A stretch of DNA of 32,227 bases from Bacteroidota bacterium. Its GTDB lineage: Bacteria > Bacteroidota > Bacteroidia > NS11-12g > UBA9320. The translations under genes and the position numbers were made by a program. The notes under the pieces are model-generated. The model was not told the origin of the DNA. It ran no database searches and saw only the letters and a list, made by a program, of their open reading frames with translations. Shown here piece by piece: positions 6,900 through 26,193 of this stretch; position 1 is the first letter of the stretch, and every line of letters begins with the position of its first letter. The DNA lies in assembly GCA_947468275.1 (NCBI GenBank), contig CANIKO010000022.1, forward strand, positions 1 through 32,227, written 5' to 3'.

Positions 6900-6997
6900 C
6901 CTTCTACTATAAAAACTAATAAATAAGAGAATCATCCATTCAAATAATTTAAAAATTGAATATAAATTAATTAATAAAAAGACGTTAGTTTGAAGTT

Positions 6998-8224
6998 GTG
7001 CTCAAGGCCTTTCTTTTTATAATTCTGCTGGCAGTTTTTAACTTAAACAACTTTGCCCAAAACCGACAATTTGCTCAAAAAACAATCGACACCTTGTCTT
7101 CAAACGCCTTTTATGGAAGGGGATATGTGAAGGGTGGTGATAAAAAAGCCGCACTATTTATTTTGCAATTTTATACAACAATTGGGTTAAAACCCTTTAA
7201 AAATTCAACGTATCTCTATCCATTTTCTTTTATGGTAAACACCTTTTCAAGTAAATGTAAAGTGAAAATAGATGGAAAAATATTGACTCCAGGATTAGAT
7301 TATATTCTAAATCCGGGGTGTCCGTCAATAAGGAAAAAGTTGTTTATTCGGCCAATTTTGGACCACAAAACCTATCCTGAAAAAAGAAAAAGGTCAGCGC
7401 TATTGTACGATACATCTTACAAGCTTGAGAAACAAGAATTAGCCAAAGCCGGCACTTTTAATTTAAAAATAGCTCTACAACGGAAACTTACCTGGAGCGT
7501 TGCTACTTCAAAAGACAGCCGTGCGGGGATTGAAATTTTAAAGACCTCTTTTCCTAATAACTCTAAAAAAATCAAGGTAAATATCCGTTCTAAAATGGTA
7601 TATCATGATGCCAATAATGTAATTGGATATATTGAAGGAACAGAAATAAAAGATTCCTTTATCGTTCTCACCGCTCATTACGACCATTTGGGAATGATGG
7701 GAAAAACCATGTTTCCGGGAGCTAATGACAACGCTAGCGGTGTAGCTATGATGATGGATATGGCAAATTATTTCAGGAAAAATCCTTGTAAATATTCAAT
7801 CGCTTTTATTGCCTTTGCAGGCGAAGAACCCGGTTTGATTGGAAGCAAAAGTTACACCGATAATCCATGGGCCGAATTGCCACTGGGTAAAATTAAATTT
7901 TTAATTAATCTGGATTTGATGGGGAGTGGTGAAAAAGGGATAGCGGTAGTAAATGCTACTATTTTTCCTGATTATTTTAACAAATTGCAGATAGCTAATG
8001 GAAATGCAGATAAAAAATATTTACCTGGCTTTAAAAGTCGCGGAAAAGCTGCCAACAGCGATCATTACTGGTTTGTAGAACGAGGGGTTAAAGGCTTTTT
8101 CTTTTATTTAATGGGAGATTATAACCATTACCACGATATTGAAGATAACGCCAAAAATCTAAAACTCGGCGAATTTTACGACAAATCGTTTTTATTAATT
8201 CGCGACTTCATTCTGTTGATTTAG
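6998..8224 (+). CDS. Exported M28-family zinc aminopeptidase
   Basis: 408 residues with a signal peptide (MLKAFLFIILLAVFNLNNFAQ). The two-zinc M28 ligand set is complete: His227 in TAHYDH, bridging Asp244 in GANDNASG, catalytic Glu276 and ligand Glu277 in GEEPGL, Asp306 in INLDLMG, and His379 in NHYHDIED. The family removes N-terminal amino acids from peptides, here in the periplasm or outside the cell. The start is GTG at 6998; an in-frame TAG at 6986 rules out extension and there is no nearby ATG. The stop overlaps the stop of the convergent small lipoprotein gene by two bases. Confidence 0.92.
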   Translation: MLKAFLFIILLAVFNLNNFAQNRQFAQKTIDTLSSNAFYGRGYVKGGDKKAALFILQFYTTIGLKPFKNSTYLYPFSFMVNTFSSKCKVKIDGKILTPGLDYILNPGCPSIRKKLFIRPILDHKTYPEKRKRSALLYDTSYKLEKQELAKAGTFNLKIALQRKLTWSVATSKDSRAGIEILKTSFPNNSKKIKVNIRSKMVYHDANNVIGYIEGTEIKDSFIVLTAHYDHLGMMGKTMFPGANDNASGVAMMMDMANYFRKNPCKYSIAFIAFAGEEPGLIGSKSYTDNPWAELPLGKIKFLINLDLMGSGEKGIAVVNATIFPDYFNKLQIANGNADKKYLPGFKSRGKAANSDHYWFVERGVKGFFFYLMGDYNHYHDIEDNAKNLKLGEFYDKSFLLIRDFILLI

Positions 8225-19079: not shown

Positions 19080-19643
19080 ATGAGACGGACAATAAATCAA
19101 TCGATTTTAGTAGTAATAGTAGCAAGTTTTTCTTTGTCAGCATTTGCTTATGGGGATGATGTGAAAAAATCAAACACTAAAAAAAACATTCACTTTAGCC
19201 CCTTTAATAACAAACCATATACTGCTAGCATAAAAAATCAGGTTGATACCCTTGTTTTCGATAAAGCCATTGAGGATACTTTAACATTTGATAATAAAAC
19301 AAAGGATGATACCTTGATTTTTGCTGATGATGAAAAACAAATGATGGGTAAACCAGATAATAACAATAATGGCAATGATTTTTCATTAACAGATTTATCA
19401 AAATCTATAGCTTTAAATCCCGTCATCTATCCCAATCCCTCGTTTGGAGAAGCCCGCTTAGAAATGAGTTCAGTAAATAACTCAACTACAGAAATTATAA
19501 TAACCTCGCATGACGGAACCATTATAAAAAGAGAGTTTACAAAAGATTCCAGCTACGAATTAACCAATTTGGCTGCTGGCAAATATATTGTTACCATTAA
19601 AAACGGAAACCAAACGGTTCAAAAGCGACTATTTGTGAAATAA
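19080..19643 (+). CDS. Secreted protein with T9SS type A C-terminal sorting domain
   Basis: 187 residues. A signal peptide (to about residue 24, ending SAFAYG) is followed by a linker with three DTLxF motifs at 56, 66 and 77 (DTLVF, DTLTF, DTLIF). A low-complexity Asn/Asp stretch comes next. Residues about 112-187 form the T9SS type A sorting domain: VIYPNPSFGEARLEM, ITSHDGTIIKREF, LAAGKYIVTIKNGNQTVQK-RLFVK. The protein should be exported by Sec and then through the outer membrane by T9SS. There is almost no cargo domain apart from the DTL repeats, which is odd. It lies 15 bases before the pseudokinase start and may be co-transcribed with it. Confidence 0.88.
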   Translation: MRRTINQSILVVIVASFSLSAFAYGDDVKKSNTKKNIHFSPFNNKPYTASIKNQVDTLVFDKAIEDTLTFDNKTKDDTLIFADDEKQMMGKPDNNNNGNDFSLTDLSKSIALNPVIYPNPSFGEARLEMSSVNNSTTEIIITSHDGTIIKREFTKDSSYELTNLAAGKYIVTIKNGNQTVQKRLFVK

Positions 19644-19658
19644 GCCTTATAATTGCGT

Positions 19659-20219
19659 ATGCAAGATGAGGCCCATACTTTACGTTCTTTGACGTTATTT
19701 GTGTCGTCACACTTTATATTCAATGTGCTTGGAAAATTACAATCTGAGATATTGAGCGGAGAAAAACGGGAAGCTGTTTCTACCTTAACCGATTATTCAA
19801 AACTACTTCGCCAAGCCTGCTCTTTTGGCTCAAAAGAAACAATTTCACTAGCCGAAGAAAAACAGTTTTTAGAAACCTATTTAAAACTGGAAAAAGCACG
19901 ATTTGGTGATAAACCTTTCTTGTGTTCCATTATTGGGTTTGATACGGAGGTGGTTTTTATAGAACCTTTCATAATACAACCCTTTGTTGAACTGGCGCTA
20001 CTCGGAAGTTTGGGCTATGAAAACAATACTATAAATGTCATATTTAATGCTGCTCAAAACTCCATTCGCATTGAATCTGTAATGCTAAACACGGAAATTC
20101 ATGAAAAGCTTGCAGGAAAATGCGAAGTAGCCAAACAAAGGTTAAACTATTTTAACTATACATATCACATTTCAGAAACAGAACCCCGATATTTACAAAA
20201 AATTTCATTAAATCCATGA
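19659..20219 (+). CDS. Degenerate LytS-type histidine kinase core (probable pseudokinase)
   Basis: About 186 residues from ATG 19659 (an in-frame TTG at 19653 is also possible). SSHFIFNVLGKL matches the phospho-acceptor motif MNPHFIFNSL of LytS kinases and keeps the His. The helix LAEEKQFLETYLKLEKARFGD matches the conserved EHDWLKTYLELENLR of the kinase encoded at 21869. The N-box Asn is lost: FIIQPFVELALLG replaces LQPYVENAIIHG. The DNGIG G1 box is not recognisable, although the AKQRLNYFN segment resembles TKDRLAILN. There are no membrane helices or sensor domain. Expected to be cytoplasmic and unable to bind ATP. The stop overlaps the start of the SIMPL gene by four bases. Confidence 0.72.
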   Translation: MQDEAHTLRSLTLFVSSHFIFNVLGKLQSEILSGEKREAVSTLTDYSKLLRQACSFGSKETISLAEEKQFLETYLKLEKARFGDKPFLCSIIGFDTEVVFIEPFIIQPFVELALLGSLGYENNTINVIFNAAQNSIRIESVMLNTEIHEKLAGKCEVAKQRLNYFNYTYHISETEPRYLQKISLNP

Positions 20220-20950
20220 ACCGTTCAAATCTAGTAATTGCAGTAGTCTTAGGCATTTCATTCATTGTTGGAAGCTGGTTTATAAGCACCATGCTTAAAA
20301 AGAAAAACGAAACCAACGATGTGATAGAAGTAACCGGATTAGCTGAAGAAAATTTCAGTTCTGATTTAATTGTTTGGACCGGCTCTTTCAATAGACTTAC
20401 CATGGATTTAAAGGAATCCTATAAACTATTAAAAACAGATGAAAACGTTGTAAAAACCTACCTTAAGGAAAAGGGAATTAGCGATAACGAAATGGTTTTT
20501 TCATCCGTAGCCATCAATCAAGATTATGAATATGTAACTGAACAAGGCGGAGGAAGTCGCCGGGTGTTTAACGGTTACCGATTGGTTCAAACAGTACGGC
20601 TTGAATCTAAGGACGTTCCTAAAATAGAAAAAATATCGCGCGAAGTTACCGAACTTATTGATCGTGGAGTAGAACTAAACTCAGATTCTCCGGCATATTA
20701 CTATACCAAATTGGCCGATTTAAAAATAAAAATGATAGCCAATGCCACCAAAGATGCCCGCGAACGGGCCGAAAAAGTAGCTGAAAACGCCAAGGCAAAA
20801 CTTGGACAATTACAACAAGCAGATATGGGTATATTTCAAATTACGGCACAAAATTCGTCAGAAGAATATTCTTGGGGAGGAACTTTAAATACAACTTCCA
20901 AAGAAAAAACGGCATCTATTACCATGAAGTTAAAATTTTCAACCCATTAA
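20216..20950 (+). CDS. SIMPL (DUF541) domain protein, membrane-anchored
   Basis: 244 residues. One N-terminal hydrophobic helix (LVIAVVLGISFIVGSWFIS) anchors or exports a SIMPL/DUF541 domain. Characteristic points are VIEVTGLAEENFSSD, the central VTELIDRGVELNSDSPAYYYT and the KDARERAEKVAENAKAKLGQ helix. Family members include E. coli YggE, linked to oxidative stress, and bacterial cell-surface proteins of unclear function. The ATG overlaps the stop of the preceding pseudokinase gene (ATGA), implying translational coupling. Confidence 0.9.
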   Translation: MNRSNLVIAVVLGISFIVGSWFISTMLKKKNETNDVIEVTGLAEENFSSDLIVWTGSFNRLTMDLKESYKLLKTDENVVKTYLKEKGISDNEMVFSSVAINQDYEYVTEQGGGSRRVFNGYRLVQTVRLESKDVPKIEKISREVTELIDRGVELNSDSPAYYYTKLADLKIKMIANATKDARERAEKVAENAKAKLGQLQQADMGIFQITAQNSSEEYSWGGTLNTTSKEKTASITMKLKFSTH

Positions 20951-21084: not shown

Positions 21085-21825
21085 ATGATAACCGCACTTA
21101 TTGTAGACGACGAAGCAGCAAGCCGCAATGGTTTAGCACAGCTTATCAGCGAATTTATTCCTGAAGTGAAAGTAGTTGGAAAAGCGGATTCTGTTCGCAG
21201 TGCCGTAGACCAAATAAATGCTTTGAACCCGGATATTGTTTTTTTGGATGTGGAAATGCCTGGCAAAGATGGGTTTGATTTAATACACGAAACCGAGCCG
21301 GCTGATTTTGAAGTAATATTTACCACCGCTCATGAGCAATATGCCTTAAAGGCTATAAAAGCCAGTGCCATTGATTATTTGCTAAAACCAATAAATCCAG
21401 AAGAACTGGCAAATGCTGTAAAAAAAGTTCAGGAAAAAAAGGAATCGGGCAATAAAAAACTGGAAACCTTTATGAGCCATGTTGGTGATAAAAAAAGGGA
21501 ACCGCAATTGGCCATCAGTACCATGGAAGGTTTAATATTTATAAAACTTGCCAATATCTTGTATTGCCGTGGCGACGGGGCTTATACCTTTTTCTTTTTA
21601 AAAACCGGTGAAAAAATAATTGCTTCAAAAAACCTGAAAGAATTTGAAAGCATACTGTGTGAACACGGGTTTTTCCGTACTCATAAATCTTATATCATTC
21701 AATTGGCCGAAATGAAGCGCTACATAAAAGGCGATGGCGGCCATGTGATTATGAGCAACGGCGAAACAGTGGATGTTTCAAAACGCCGAAAAGAAAGTTT
21801 TGTGCACGCTTTGGCTGAATTGTAA
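21085..21825 (+). CDS. LytTR-family response regulator
   Basis: 246 residues. Receiver domain about 1-120: acidic pair Asp9-Asp10, phospho-acceptor Asp55 in FLDVEMPGKDGFD, and the conserved lysine in YLLKPINP. The LytTR DNA-binding domain spans about 140-240 (LANILYCRGDGAYTFFFL, FFRTHKSYIIQLAEMKRYIKG). It should be phosphorylated by a LytS-type kinase and bind promoter direct repeats. The gene for a full LytS-type kinase starts 43 bases after its stop, an obvious cognate partner. Confidence 0.95.
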   Translation: MITALIVDDEAASRNGLAQLISEFIPEVKVVGKADSVRSAVDQINALNPDIVFLDVEMPGKDGFDLIHETEPADFEVIFTTAHEQYALKAIKASAIDYLLKPINPEELANAVKKVQEKKESGNKKLETFMSHVGDKKREPQLAISTMEGLIFIKLANILYCRGDGAYTFFFLKTGEKIIASKNLKEFESILCEHGFFRTHKSYIIQLAEMKRYIKGDGGHVIMSNGETVDVSKRRKESFVHALAEL

Positions 21826-21868: not shown

Positions 21869-24800
21869 ATGTTGACTAGAGCTATCCTGTTTTCTTTACT
21901 TTTATTTTTTGGGCAAATATCACAAGCCCAGAAAGACCTTATTCGATTTCAAAATATTACCATTGATAATGGGCTGGCTCAAGGTTCCATTACCGGAATA
22001 GTGCATGGAAATGATGGCTATATTTGGATTGCTACAGCCGATGGGCTGCACCGCTACGATGGCTACAACTTTAAAATTTATAGAAACAACCCACAAGATA
22101 AAAATTCACTTCCTGATAATTATATCAGTTGCCTATTTGAAGACAGTAAAGGAAATCTAGTTATTGGATTATTTAGCGGCGAAGTGTGCGTTTTGGATAA
22201 GAATAATTCAACGTTTAAAGAACTAAAAATAAATCAAGGCCAAAATCTGGAAACGGCCGATCCTGTAACCTGCATTAATGAAGACGGCAAAGGAAATTAC
22301 TTGATAGGCTATGATGGCGGAGGCTTAGTAAAATATGACCCCACCAAGCAACAAACCAAAACCTTTAAAACAGGACTATCAGCCGAATTACAAAGCAATA
22401 CTATTAAGTGTATTATTAAAGACAACTACACCGGCAATTTTTGGATTGGTACTTCCATGGGATTGTGCGAGTATAATCCAAACATGGAGTCTATCAAACA
22501 ATTTAAAACCACCAGTAAACTAGATTCTCAAAGTATTACAACCGTATTAACTCCTGAACCTGATAAGATTTTTATAGGAACTTATGGCCAAGGGATTTAT
22601 CAATATATCCGTGGGGGAGATTCGGCAATAAGAATAAAATTACCAAAAAGCAAAGGCACCCGAATTATTTCTTTTCTTAAAAAAACACCTAACCGACATG
22701 AAATCTGGATTGGAACTTCAGGAGGAATTTATAAATGGGAAGGGCAAAGTATTACGCTTTATACCAATAATCCTTTAAATCCGGAAAGCTTGGTGGATAA
22801 TAATACGCAAACAGCTACCATTGATAAATTTGGCACATTGTGGGTTGGTACAATGAATGGATTAAGCCGTTTTGATCGAAGGCTTAAGCTTTTCAATTTA
22901 TTTAGGGAATTTAAATGGAAAGACTCTCTTCTTAATAACGTTGTTTACAGTATATATGAGGATCATTCCAAAGCAATTTGGATGGGAACCCAAAGTTCGG
23001 GTATTATAAAATTTAATCCAGTAACAGAAGAAATAATTGCCTGGCCGGTAATCACTGCCCCCGGCATTGAAACCAAAATGGTGAGGGCCATTTATAAAGA
23101 CCGTTCTGGTCAGTTATGGATAGGCTCGAGAGATAAAGGATTGTTTAAATTTTACCCCGAACAAAATCGTTTTGAAGAGGTTAACGGAGCGAAAGGGTTT
23201 GAGATAAGCAGCATTACCATCCGAAGTATTTTTGAAGATAACGATGGAACAATGTGGGTTGGAACAGCCAATGGACTCAATAAATACAACAGAAAAACCA
23301 ACCAATTTGAAGTTTACAGAGCCATAAAAGAATCACCAAACAATAATAGTATTTACCAAATAAGTGAATCATTAGATGGCAAATCTCTCTATCTAGTTTG
23401 CTTTCGGGGTGGATTTCAAATTTTTAATAAAACGGATAAAACCTTTAAATTATTCACTACTAATTTGCCCATTAAAAATAACATTGGAAAAAGCTACGCT
23501 ATGTGTTTTGAAATGCTGGGCCAAGACAGTGTAATGGTGGGAACCTATGGTGGTGGCTTAAGTATAATTAATCTTATAAGCGGCAAATCGAGAAGCATTA
23601 CTGAAAAACAAGGGCTAGCTAATAACTCGGTTTACGGAATTTTAAGAGATGGAAATACGTTTTGGCTGTCCACAAACCGGGGTTTGTCAAGTTTTAATAT
23701 AAAAACTAATGTTATCCGAAATTTTGGATTAAAAAATTACATACAAAGCAATGAATACAATGAAGGGGCCTATTGCAAAACCAGTGACGGAACCTTTTAT
23801 TTTGGCGGGGTTAACGGGTTTAATTATTTCAAACCATCTCAATTTCCATCAGAAAATGAACACTATAAAACAGAAATTACTGGCATCAAAAAAGGAGAAA
23901 CAGAAGTTCCTTTTTTTATAGATAAAAATGGAGAACGGTTTATAAAACTGAACTATAATGACAATCTCATTTCATTTGAATTTGCAACCCTTAATTTTAT
24001 TTCTACCAACGTAAATCAATATGCTTATAAATTGGAAGGATTTGATGACAACTGGATAAAATCTGGAAATCGCACCACGGCATATTACACTAAGTTGTCG
24101 CCGGGCAATTATACGTTTCGAGTAAAGGCGCTTACCGCAGATTCACTCTCCCAATATGCAGGTGCCTTTATTCATATTATTATTGAACCCCCTTTTTGGC
24201 AAACGTGGTGGTTTTATTCCATTATCGTTTTAATTGTTTTCGGTATTATTTATTTGGTGATAAAATGGAGAACCCGTGTTATCAATAAAAACTACAGTCA
24301 CAAATTAGCTGAACTGGAACTAAAGGCTTTGCGAAGCCAAATGAATCCGCATTTTATTTTTAATTCACTAAATAGCATCCAATATTTTATCCTAAAAAAA
24401 GAACCAAAGGATGCCTATAATTATCTCACCAAATTTAGTAGCCTGATGCGTATGATACTTCAAAATTCAAAGTACAAATCCATTAGTCTGCAAGCTGAAC
24501 ACGATTGGCTAAAAACCTATTTGGAACTTGAAAACCTGCGGATGGAAAACACACTGGATTTTAGTATTACCATTGACAAAAATTTACATCCTGATCATAT
24601 CTATGTTCCAACAATGGTATTACAACCGTATGTAGAAAATGCCATTATTCATGGGTTATTGCCCAAAGAAGGCAATAGAAAACTTACCATCGAAATACTT
24701 GCCGAAGGACAAAACATAAAATGTATAATTACTGATAATGGTATTGGTCGGGCTGCATCGCAGGAGCTTAACAAAACCCGCCTGAAACATCATGAAAGTA

Positions 24801-24958
24801 CAGCTATGAACTTAACAAAAGACCGATTGGCAATACTGAATATTGAAACCGGAAATGGTGTAGGACCAAATGTTATTGATATGTTTGACGAAAACGGAAA
24901 TTCAATTGGAACCAAGGTCGAACTGATATTACCTTTGATTATTCAAAATGATGTGTAA
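21869..24958 (+). CDS. Two-component sensor histidine kinase with beta-propeller and Y_Y_Y sensor
   Basis: 1029 residues from ATG 21869, which opens a clear signal peptide (MLTRAILFSLLLFFGQISQAQ); a longer frame from 21773 only overlaps the upstream gene. A periplasmic ligand-sensor propeller built of Reg_prop repeats follows (for example GNDGYIWIATADGLHRYDGY, LWVGTMNGLSRFD), to about residue 690. A Y_Y_Y domain (YAYKLEGFDDNW, LSPGNYTFRVKA) precedes one membrane helix at about 780-800. The LytS-type core is MNPHFIFNSLNS with His828, N-box Asn924 in VLQPYVENAIIHG, and G-box DNGIG at 956. It lacks the receiver and AraC domains of hybrid systems and should phosphorylate a separate LytTR regulator. 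Confidence 0.94.
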   Translation: MLTRAILFSLLLFFGQISQAQKDLIRFQNITIDNGLAQGSITGIVHGNDGYIWIATADGLHRYDGYNFKIYRNNPQDKNSLPDNYISCLFEDSKGNLVIGLFSGEVCVLDKNNSTFKELKINQGQNLETADPVTCINEDGKGNYLIGYDGGGLVKYDPTKQQTKTFKTGLSAELQSNTIKCIIKDNYTGNFWIGTSMGLCEYNPNMESIKQFKTTSKLDSQSITTVLTPEPDKIFIGTYGQGIYQYIRGGDSAIRIKLPKSKGTRIISFLKKTPNRHEIWIGTSGGIYKWEGQSITLYTNNPLNPESLVDNNTQTATIDKFGTLWVGTMNGLSRFDRRLKLFNLFREFKWKDSLLNNVVYSIYEDHSKAIWMGTQSSGIIKFNPVTEEIIAWPVITAPGIETKMVRAIYKDRSGQLWIGSRDKGLFKFYPEQNRFEEVNGAKGFEISSITIRSIFEDNDGTMWVGTANGLNKYNRKTNQFEVYRAIKESPNNNSIYQISESLDGKSLYLVCFRGGFQIFNKTDKTFKLFTTNLPIKNNIGKSYAMCFEMLGQDSVMVGTYGGGLSIINLISGKSRSITEKQGLANNSVYGILRDGNTFWLSTNRGLSSFNIKTNVIRNFGLKNYIQSNEYNEGAYCKTSDGTFYFGGVNGFNYFKPSQFPSENEHYKTEITGIKKGETEVPFFIDKNGERFIKLNYNDNLISFEFATLNFISTNVNQYAYKLEGFDDNWIKSGNRTTAYYTKLSPGNYTFRVKALTADSLSQYAGAFIHIIIEPPFWQTWWFYSIIVLIVFGIIYLVIKWRTRVINKNYSHKLAELELKALRSQMNPHFIFNSLNSIQYFILKKEPKDAYNYLTKFSSLMRMILQNSKYKSISLQAEHDWLKTYLELENLRMENTLDFSITIDKNLHPDHIYVPTMVLQPYVENAIIHGLLPKEGNRKLTIEILAEGQNIKCIITDNGIGRAASQELNKTRLKHHESTAMNLTKDRLAILNIETGNGVGPNVIDMFDENGNSIGTKVELILPLIIQNDV

Positions 24959-25012: not shown

Positions 25013-25437
25013 CTCAATTTTCAACACCTAACGGATGCAAAATAGAAAATTTGATTTAGAGGACCGATTTGTGGATTATACATGCAGGATGATTGATTTG
25101 GTAGAAGCCTTGCCTAATTCAAGAGCAGGACTTTATAGTGCAGGACAGTTAATTAGGTCTTGCCATTCACCCACCTTCAATTATGGTGAAGCCCAAGCTG
25201 CTGAATCTCCTAAAGATTTTGTTCATAAAATGAGTGTCGTCTTAAAAGAATCAAAAGAATGCAGAACGGCACTAAAAATTATCCGTAAAAAAGAATTGAT
25301 AAAGCCTATATTAAAACTTGAAGATGTTTATAAGGAAACAGAGGAACTAATTGCCATTGTTGCTAAAAGCATTGCCACAGCTAGAAAAAACAATAACCTT
25401 TAATCACGCGAAGCCAAATTGAGCGTTGAATATTGAG
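25013..25437. mobile_element. IVS-like element: four-helix-bundle gene between imperfect inverted repeats
   Basis: CTCAATTTTCAAC at 25013-25025 and GTTGAATATTGAG at 25425-25437 are inverted repeats matching at 12 of 13 bases and flank the four-helix-bundle gene (25035-25403). Each side also has a second, weaker copy (direct repeat CAATTTTCAAC at 25001-25011; TTTATTGA after 25442). In 23S rRNA, such intervening sequences have pairing ends. Here the unit sits between the sensor kinase and the second regulator. No transposase is present, so mobility is inferred. Confidence 0.5.
25035..25403 (+). CDS. Four-helix bundle protein (23S rRNA-intervening-sequence-protein-like)
   Basis: 122 residues, almost wholly alpha-helical. 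The family pattern is clear: FDLEDRFVDYTCRMIDLVEALP, then GLYSAGQLIRSCHSPTFNYGEAQAAES, then FVHKMSVVLKESKECRTALKI. Relatives are encoded inside 23S rRNA intervening sequences or stand alone in many Bacteroidota genomes; their function is not established. Here it is inserted in a two-component locus, with inverted repeats on both sides. It might be a passenger rather than part of the pathway. Confidence 0.88.
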   Translation: MQNRKFDLEDRFVDYTCRMIDLVEALPNSRAGLYSAGQLIRSCHSPTFNYGEAQAAESPKDFVHKMSVVLKESKECRTALKIIRKKELIKPILKLEDVYKETEELIAIVAKSIATARKNNNL

Positions 25438-25467: not shown

Positions 25468-26193
25468 ATGAGAAGAGCAGTAATAGTAGACGACGAACCC
25501 AAAAGCATTGAGGTTTTAAAAACCTTGGTGGAATGTTTTATCGAAGGAATTGAAATTGTGGGAACCGCCAATGATATTGAAACCGCTATTCAGGTAATTG
25601 AAAATACAAACCCCGATATTGCTTTTTTAGATATTACCCTAAAAGAAGGGGATTCTTTCCAAATACTGAAACGTCTTAAAAAAATAGATTTTGACGTGGT
25701 TTTTATAACCGCATATGATGAATATACTACCCGGGCATTGCGCTATTCGGGCATTCATTGTTTGTATAAACCCATCGATATTTCAGAGTTTGAAAATACT
25801 TTAGCACAGTTAAATACACGAAATGAGCAAACCGGTGATGCCATCGAAATAGCCCGTCAACTGCTGCAAAGTAAGTTTACCCAAATACCAGTAATTACGG
25901 AGAAGGGATTGCTCTACATTACTCCTGAGCAAATAAATTATATGGAATCCCACTATGGCGGAAGTCAAATTTATTTTAACGATTATAAAAGTTTGGTTAC
26001 CAATAAGCCCTTGGCTGATTTAGAGGCGGTGATGGAGAATAGCTCGTTTGTATTAATCCGAAACAACCTTTTAATTAATCTTAAAAATATTGTGGTTGAA
26101 AAAACCAAACCTGGCAAAGTTATTTTCAATTCAGGGGCCGAACTTCGGATAGAACCCGAGGAAGTAAATAAATTATTGCGGATGTTGGGGTGA
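25468..26193 (+). CDS. LytTR-family response regulator (second)
   Basis: 241 residues. The receiver domain has Asp9-Asp10, phospho-acceptor Asp55 in FLDITLKEGDSF and lysine in CLYKPIDI. The LytTR domain covers about 135-240 (INYMESHYGGSQIYFNDY, FVLIRNNLLINLKNIVVEK). It differs clearly from the regulator at 21085 in its DNA-binding half, so the two probably bind different sites. There is no separate kinase gene of its own, so the kinase at 21869 or the pseudokinase at 19659 may serve it. Confidence 0.94.
   Translation: MRRAVIVDDEPKSIEVLKTLVECFIEGIEIVGTANDIETAIQVIENTNPDIAFLDITLKEGDSFQILKRLKKIDFDVVFITAYDEYTTRALRYSGIHCLYKPIDISEFENTLAQLNTRNEQTGDAIEIARQLLQSKFTQIPVITEKGLLYITPEQINYMESHYGGSQIYFNDYKSLVTNKPLADLEAVMENSSFVLIRNNLLINLKNIVVEKTKPGKVIFNSGAELRIEPEEVNKLLRMLG

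Follow-up and report, generated by a model that had tools for sequence, protein, structure and literature searches.

A short LytS-derived protein lacking the ATP motifs is a candidate histidine phosphotransferase of a LytS/LytTR operon in Bacteroidota

The window, i.e. the whole stretch of 32,227 nucleotides analysed here, encodes a short protein that keeps the histidine hairpin of LytS kinases and lacks their ATP motifs, in one operon with a complete LytS kinase and two LytTR regulators (RR1 and RR2; Table 1). We consider a phosphorelay built from LytS/LytTR parts, running from the kinase through RR2 and the short protein to RR1, to be the best explanation of this set, at a probability of about one half; both the transfer and its direction are inferred. 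The short protein would descend from a LytS kinase that lost its ATP lid and ATP motifs, and would now act as a histidine phosphotransferase. The kinase would autophosphorylate and pass phosphate to the receiver of RR2, in the manner of Spo0F; RR2 would hand it to His18 of a putative short-protein dimer, in the manner of Spo0B or ChpT; and His18 would pass it to the receiver of RR1, the member of the set with a well-preserved DNA-binding domain. Such a relay fits because the acceptor histidine is invariant, the ATP motifs are lost, a companion receiver is losing its output domain and one regulator has an intact output. The proposed direction follows from RR1 being the regulator that keeps DNA binding.

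Table 1. Features of the operon and of the short gene in the window
Feature	Coordinates	Strand	Basis or remark
Small acidic protein carrying a C-terminal T9SS sorting domain; opens the block	19080..19643	+	Domain and locus comparison
Short protein of LytS descent that lacks the ATP motifs; candidate Spo0B/ChpT-like histidine phosphotransferase	19659..20219	+	Pfam, model, conservation
His18 codon, predicted phospho-acceptor	19710..19712	+	Identical in 20/20 relatives
Leu codon (CTG) at the N-box Asn position, after E111	19992..19994	+	Asn kept in 6/20 relatives
SIMPL (DUF541) gene	20216..20950	+	4-nt overlap with the short gene; sited here only in one genus among the loci compared
RR1: receiver and intact LytTR DNA-binding domain, proposed terminal output regulator	21085..21825	+	Pfam, alignment
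Reg_prop/Y_Y_Y sensor LytS histidine kinase, proposed phosphate source	21869..24958	+	N-box and DNGIG intact
RR2: conserved receiver and decaying LytTR domain, proposed intermediate receiver (Spo0F-like)	25468..26193	+	Pfam, alignment

The short frame encodes 186 residues from the ATG at 19659, or 188 from a TTG at 19653. Its Pfam match is to His_kinase (PF06580; residues 9–85, E 1.6e-14, 54.3 bits against a cut-off of 25.2), and neither HATPase_c nor any other Pfam family matches up to E 1. NCBIfam gave no match up to E 0.01 for this protein or for two distant relatives. The protein carries the sequence SSHFIFN, which contains H18, so the HFIFN phospho-acceptor motif described in an earlier note on this DNA is indeed present. 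Leucine replaces the N-box Asn, and DNGIG is missing. The earlier note had called the protein a LytS-like pseudokinase on account of these two losses. This description is supported, since DNGIG is absent from all 20 short proteins while the histidine hairpin is kept; the Asn is lost from the window protein and from 14 of the 20 overall but retained in six. The lid region is shortened in all 16 proteins measured. All 18 short proteins of alignment A2 match His_kinase at E up to 1, and to the same limit none of the 18 matches HATPase_c, Spo0B or HPt.

Relatives of the short protein were sought in 58 related genomes, in 108 genomes of the order and in the neighbourhoods of RR1 orthologues. The protein was found in 20 genomes, the window's included, which belong to two families of one order (13 in f1, genera g1, g3, g6 and g8; seven in f2, genera g13, g18, g21, g23 and g24), and its gene holds the same position in one operon throughout. 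Among 18 relatives the identity to the window protein drops as low as 19%, yet S17, H18, N22, Q28, E78, R81 and E111 are identical in all 20, and the proline that precedes the histidine in the neighbouring LytS kinases is serine in all 20. This conservation of residues and locus is far above chance. The homologues, which share the gene order, show more than the random decay that would have told against the pseudokinase. A profile search across the order found no further short frame of the same kind among the matches listed.

We compared the 20 short proteins with 15 neighbouring kinases and 22 other LytS cores in a phylogenetic tree. The short proteins form one clade, with an ultrafast bootstrap of 98, which is split by family. 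Four other LytS proteins from the same order join this clade with a support of 100, whereas the neighbouring kinases do not; at the deeper nodes support is 30–35, the root is arbitrary and the short branch is long. A recent truncated copy of the neighbouring kinase is therefore unsupported, as the short clade falls outside those kinases at that level of support. Because it forms a single clade apart from the neighbouring kinases, the short protein appears to be an old paralogue inherited with the locus rather than a fresh truncation.

To define the range, we used samples of 395 genomes of the class and 296 of the phylum, both including members of the order, with at most 8–11 candidates scored per genome. 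Outside the order, every frame that the short profile matched with an E of 1e-32 or less has at least 276 residues; the divergent members G081 and G082, which score just 92.5 and 64.4 bits with the short model, would have escaped this search. In all 22 loci fetched outside the order, an RR1 relative follows its kinase, and no short gene occurs within the roughly 3.7 kb, or less, that was fetched. The frame of 276 residues is a separate case, found in genome G169 of family f54 (L184:7700-8524, minus strand). It encodes a 274-residue protein in which a hydrophobic stretch at the N terminus accompanies a LytS core containing NSHFVFN; the N-box Asn of this core is replaced (VERS) and DNG is missing. 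The gene overlaps that of a LytTR regulator (6921-7703) by 4 bases, no second LytS-like gene was found in the 16 kb fetched, and a 71% identical fragment occurs in G733. It looks like another, membrane-anchored pseudo-LytS.

Within the short gene the hairpin is under the strongest selection; in the second domain constraint has relaxed, although the domain persists. In three pairs among G000, G004 and G005, all of the window's genus, dN/dS is 0.12–0.16 for the hairpin and 0.48–0.94 for the second domain, values that are imprecise because dS is low (0.10–0.15). Between G008 and G018, where dS is near saturation, dN is 0.041 in the hairpin and 0.249 in the rest; hairpin dN/dS is 0.02 in the g3 pair. 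In all four pairs, hairpin dN is 2–6 times lower than that of the rest. Mean pairwise identity among the 20 short proteins is 36% in the hairpin and 21% elsewhere, compared with 76 and 49% among the 15 neighbouring kinases. As a separate observation, RR2 and the kinase have a dS of 0.56–1.09 in the same genomes in which that of the short gene is 0.10–0.15 (the window against L037 and L038), hinting at recent recombination around the short gene.

An AlphaFold2 model of the short protein, built on a 16-sequence alignment, has a pLDDT of 88.5 and a pTM of 0.86. Helices at residues 2–15, 18–32, 36–57 and 64–82 are followed by a GHKL-like domain, and H18 lies at the start of the second helix. Since the predicted hairpin and second domain fill the whole model, they leave no room for a sensor or membrane part, as the earlier note had proposed. 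Only three residues separate the strand 135–141 from the 20-residue helix 145–164. In the core of the neighbouring kinase, modelled by the same calculation, 21 residues separate the strand 161–168 from the helix 190–204, and DNGIG occupies 168–172, with the strand ending at its Asp; the mean pLDDT of this model is 75.5 but about 54 in the strand-to-helix part, which is thus of low confidence. The alignments show the same difference: the distance from the N-box Glu to a conserved α5 position is 50–59 residues in 16 short proteins and 63–64 in 14 kinases. No ATP lid is recognizable in the model of the short protein, whose predicted histidine hairpin and lid-free GHKL domain recall the phosphotransferase ChpT.

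We compared this fold with known structures. The best Foldseek matches of the short model are kinase cores (GanS and AgrC). Phosphotransferase chains (4fmt, 4fpp, 4qpj and 4qpk) make up seven of the best 50, with 4qpk_A giving the highest query TM score, 0.59, whereas the kinase-core control has no such chain among its best 50. The entry 4fmt is named ChpT in these matches, and we take 4fpp, 4qpj and 4qpk to be ChpT as well. In VIA-align, GanS has a Z score of 14.5 (r.m.s.d. 4.8, 163 residues aligned) and 4qpj_A one of 12.4 (r.m.s.d. 4.5, 170 aligned); Spo0B is absent among the matches listed, which excludes nothing. At the sequence level, the A2 profile found GanS (6swj) alone among PDB sequences up to E 1, with no match to Spo0B or ChpT. 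The fold alone does not part active kinases from phosphotransferases, and the top structural matches are active kinases.

The gene order at the locus is short gene, RR1, kinase, RR2. The earlier note had correctly placed the complete kinase and both LytTR regulators in the same plus-strand block, downstream of the short gene. It had also taken the short gene to be translationally coupled to the SIMPL gene, whose membrane protein might tether the product. The ATGA overlap at 20216–20219 exists, but SIMPL lies between the short gene and RR1 in only six of the 20 loci, all of genus g1 (the contig of G006 ends after SIMPL), and it overlaps the short gene only in the window and G004, being 2–3 bases away in the other four. 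In the remaining 14 loci SIMPL is absent from this position and the short gene adjoins RR1 directly, with a gap of −23 to 12 bases. SIMPL is therefore unlikely to be a general tether, since the coupling is confined to one genus. Other neighbours vary as well. The T9SS-tailed protein that opens the block has a DTLVF/DTLIF-like acidic motif; many f1 loci have a similar gene ahead of the short gene or RR1, including loci from which the short gene is missing, and the protein could be a ligand or target of the kinase. A gene for a 23S rRNA-intervening-sequence-like protein (25035–25403) separates the kinase from RR2 only in the window and G004 among the loci compared. G001, of the same genus, has the T9SS-tail protein, SIMPL and RR1 but no short gene. 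Its locus is split over two contigs, one with these three genes (L153:5100-7132) and one with the kinase and RR2 (L054:4900-8714), where the neighbour is an unrelated protein of 1598 residues.

The two regulators differ in which domain is preserved. All 22 aligned copies of RR2 share the receiver residues D, D, D, T and K, and that of G003 agrees by eye; RR1 has the same residues in 32 of 32, save for Ser in place of Thr in three. The receivers of the two regulators form separate groups in a tree. Outside the closest species, the output domain of RR1 is 49–69% identical to that of the window, as conserved as its receiver or more so, and Pfam LytTR matches 11 of the 11 copies scanned at 56.5–69.7 bits. 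The output domain of RR2, by comparison, is only 13–28% identical outside the genus, while RR2 receivers are 42–59% identical. Of 20 RR2 copies scanned (those of G003, G004 and G005 were left out), nine exceed the LytTR cut-off of 22.6 bits, the best at 47.3, six fall below it and five have no match up to E 0.1. The LytTR domain of RR2 is thus decaying while its receiver stays intact, and RR2 might still bind DNA in some genomes, given the nine that pass the cut-off. No RR2 relative outside the order exceeds 210 bits, compared with at least 247 for the seven order genomes with RR2 in the sample, which are themselves in or near the model.

RR2 also accompanies the short protein wherever both genes can be read. 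The locus is present in 35 genomes of the order (34 of the 38 matched, plus G006); G051, G052, G071 and G075, with sole RR1 matches at 35–43% identity, were left out. Contig ends make four loci unreadable (G006, G014, G058 and G080), and 31 can be read for both genes. Among these, 19 have the short gene and RR2, none has the short gene only, three have RR2 only and nine have neither, where absence mostly means absence at the locus rather than from the genome. The association has a Fisher p of 1.1e-5 with no correction for descent; eight of the nine loci without either gene belong to genus g10, the other being G009, so there are few independent losses. The three genomes with RR2 alone (G001, G007 and G010) keep an intact RR2 receiver. 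They count against an obligate relay and suggest that RR2 has some role without the short protein.

The kinase helix after the histidine is nearly identical with or without the short protein and RR2; a changed docking helix at loci lacking the short protein was not seen, and there is no sign of a re-tuned partner choice. Nor was a better LytTR domain seen in RR2 where the short protein is absent (16.2, 24.2 and 21.6 bits). A FastTree tree and RR2-like letters in g10 suggested that the RR1 receiver had been rewired once the short protein was lost, but on the branch concerned the stem lengths of receiver and output domain are 0.657 and 0.352, an ordinary ratio of 1.87 against 1.73 overall. The nearly unchanged docking helix and the failed rewiring test, like the genomes with RR2 alone and the nine RR2 copies with LytTR above the cut-off, argue against the relay.

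The earlier note had offered three roles for the short protein. Among them, a phosphotransfer intermediate is best supported because the histidine, the Asn at +4 and the companion receiver RR2 are conserved, whereas a dimer partner and a decoy fail to explain the unvarying histidine. The dimer partner can be stated more precisely: by pairing with the hairpin of the LytS kinase, the short protein would tune or block its activity, as RetS does with GacS. Hairpin family and operon are common to both proteins, and a chain of the RetS–GacS complex stands at rank 21 of the Foldseek matches. However, such a modulator has no evident need of an invariant acceptor histidine and +4 Asn in 20 of 20 proteins, it predicts no link with RR2, and in the tree the short proteins do not arise from among the neighbouring kinases; we regard it as improbable. 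That the gene is merely a functionless kinase duplicate in decay is very improbable. The poor conservation of its second domain (21% mean identity, and a dN/dS of 0.48–0.94 in the three within-genus pairs) would suit this, as would the fact that several lineages, among them the congeneric G001, lack the gene at the locus, but invariant residues in 20 genomes of two families, a single well-supported clade and the low hairpin dN/dS, both within the genus and in the g3 pair, mean that conservation has already largely refuted it.

The same conserved residues could instead serve to remove phosphate. The kinase would then phosphorylate RR1 directly, and the short protein would damp the response, either by shifting the phosphate of RR1 onto RR2, which would act as a sink of scant or no output, or by hydrolysing it. 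A conserved histidine and +4 Asn are equally expected here, a decaying output domain is what a sink would show, and RR2 can occur without the short gene; at loci lacking both, whose kinase helix is nearly unchanged, the kinase presumably phosphorylates RR1 itself. A degenerate kinase that acts as a bifunctional phosphotransferase and was once proposed to be a phosphatase is described in PMC5898713. The direction of such a drain, however, is fixed by no sequence feature, and for a pure phosphatase a second receiver as steady companion would be superfluous. We rate drainage or hydrolysis as rather unlikely, and retain the relay from kinase through RR2 and the short protein to RR1.

This proposed relay resembles known systems in part. 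According to PMC6136694 and PMC11210211, the four-protein phosphorelay of Bacillus with Spo0F, Spo0B and Spo0A likewise combines an acceptor-histidine hairpin protein, a companion receiver and a terminal DNA-binding regulator, and the former states that Spo0F and Spo0B are, in nearly every species, either both encoded or both missing. In contrast, the window set is made of LytS and LytTR families, lies in one operon with its kinase and would come from a bacterium of another phylum, with the T9SS tail and the Reg_prop kinase pointing to Bacteroidota; RR2 keeps a remnant output domain that distinguishes it from Spo0F, RR2 occurs without the short gene in three of 31 loci, and the short protein has no sequence match to Spo0B. 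The ChpT proteins found in Caulobacter and its relatives also combine a hairpin with a Bergerat-like domain, and they give the best whole-model TM score among the best 50 Foldseek matches. According to PMC3433190, the place of the lid in ChpT is taken by extra turns of α5, which together with a small additional helix shut the pocket; this replacement of the lid resembles the model of the short protein. Unlike the window set, for which a separate receiver protein is proposed, ChpT follows a hybrid kinase; its kinase family also differs, and there is no sequence match. Degenerate HWE kinases of the PhyT (PhyP) type in alphaproteobacteria are, according to PMC5898713, likewise suspected phosphotransferases encoded beside their target regulator, but PhyT is membrane-anchored, with a putative periplasmic sensor and an HRxxN motif, whereas the short protein is of LytS type and consists only of hairpin and second domain. 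The kinase and RR1 belong to the family of LytS/LytTR systems such as BtsS/BtsR, from which all four window proteins descend. The standard arrangement in that family is one kinase and one regulator, to which the window locus adds two partly decayed members.

Kinase-derived phosphotransferases are thus already known, but neither a LytS-derived one whose operon also encodes a LytTR regulator with an output domain in decay, nor the present locus, was found in the open PMC literature, as judged from titles and the beginnings of abstracts. To our knowledge, the transition from two-component system to phosphorelay by way of a kinase-derived phosphotransferase has few cases (Spo0B, ChpT and PhyT), all in other kinase families. 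We tentatively suggest, at somewhat less than even odds, that duplications within LytS/LytTR signalling gave rise, in Bacteroidota-like bacteria, to one more complete four-protein phosphorelay, encoded in one operon: one kinase copy would have turned into the phosphotransferase by losing its ATP site, and one regulator copy would be turning into the intermediate receiver as its DNA-binding domain is lost. If so, the species at various stages of RR2 decay and the lineages without both parts would show a relay being built and dismantled. The locus would offer an independent case of phosphorelay origin in the LytS/LytTR world, in which the order of events is readable, and testable with four proteins, because related species have both extra parts, one or none. 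It would also mean that proteins annotated with His_kinase only can be conserved signalling parts rather than debris.
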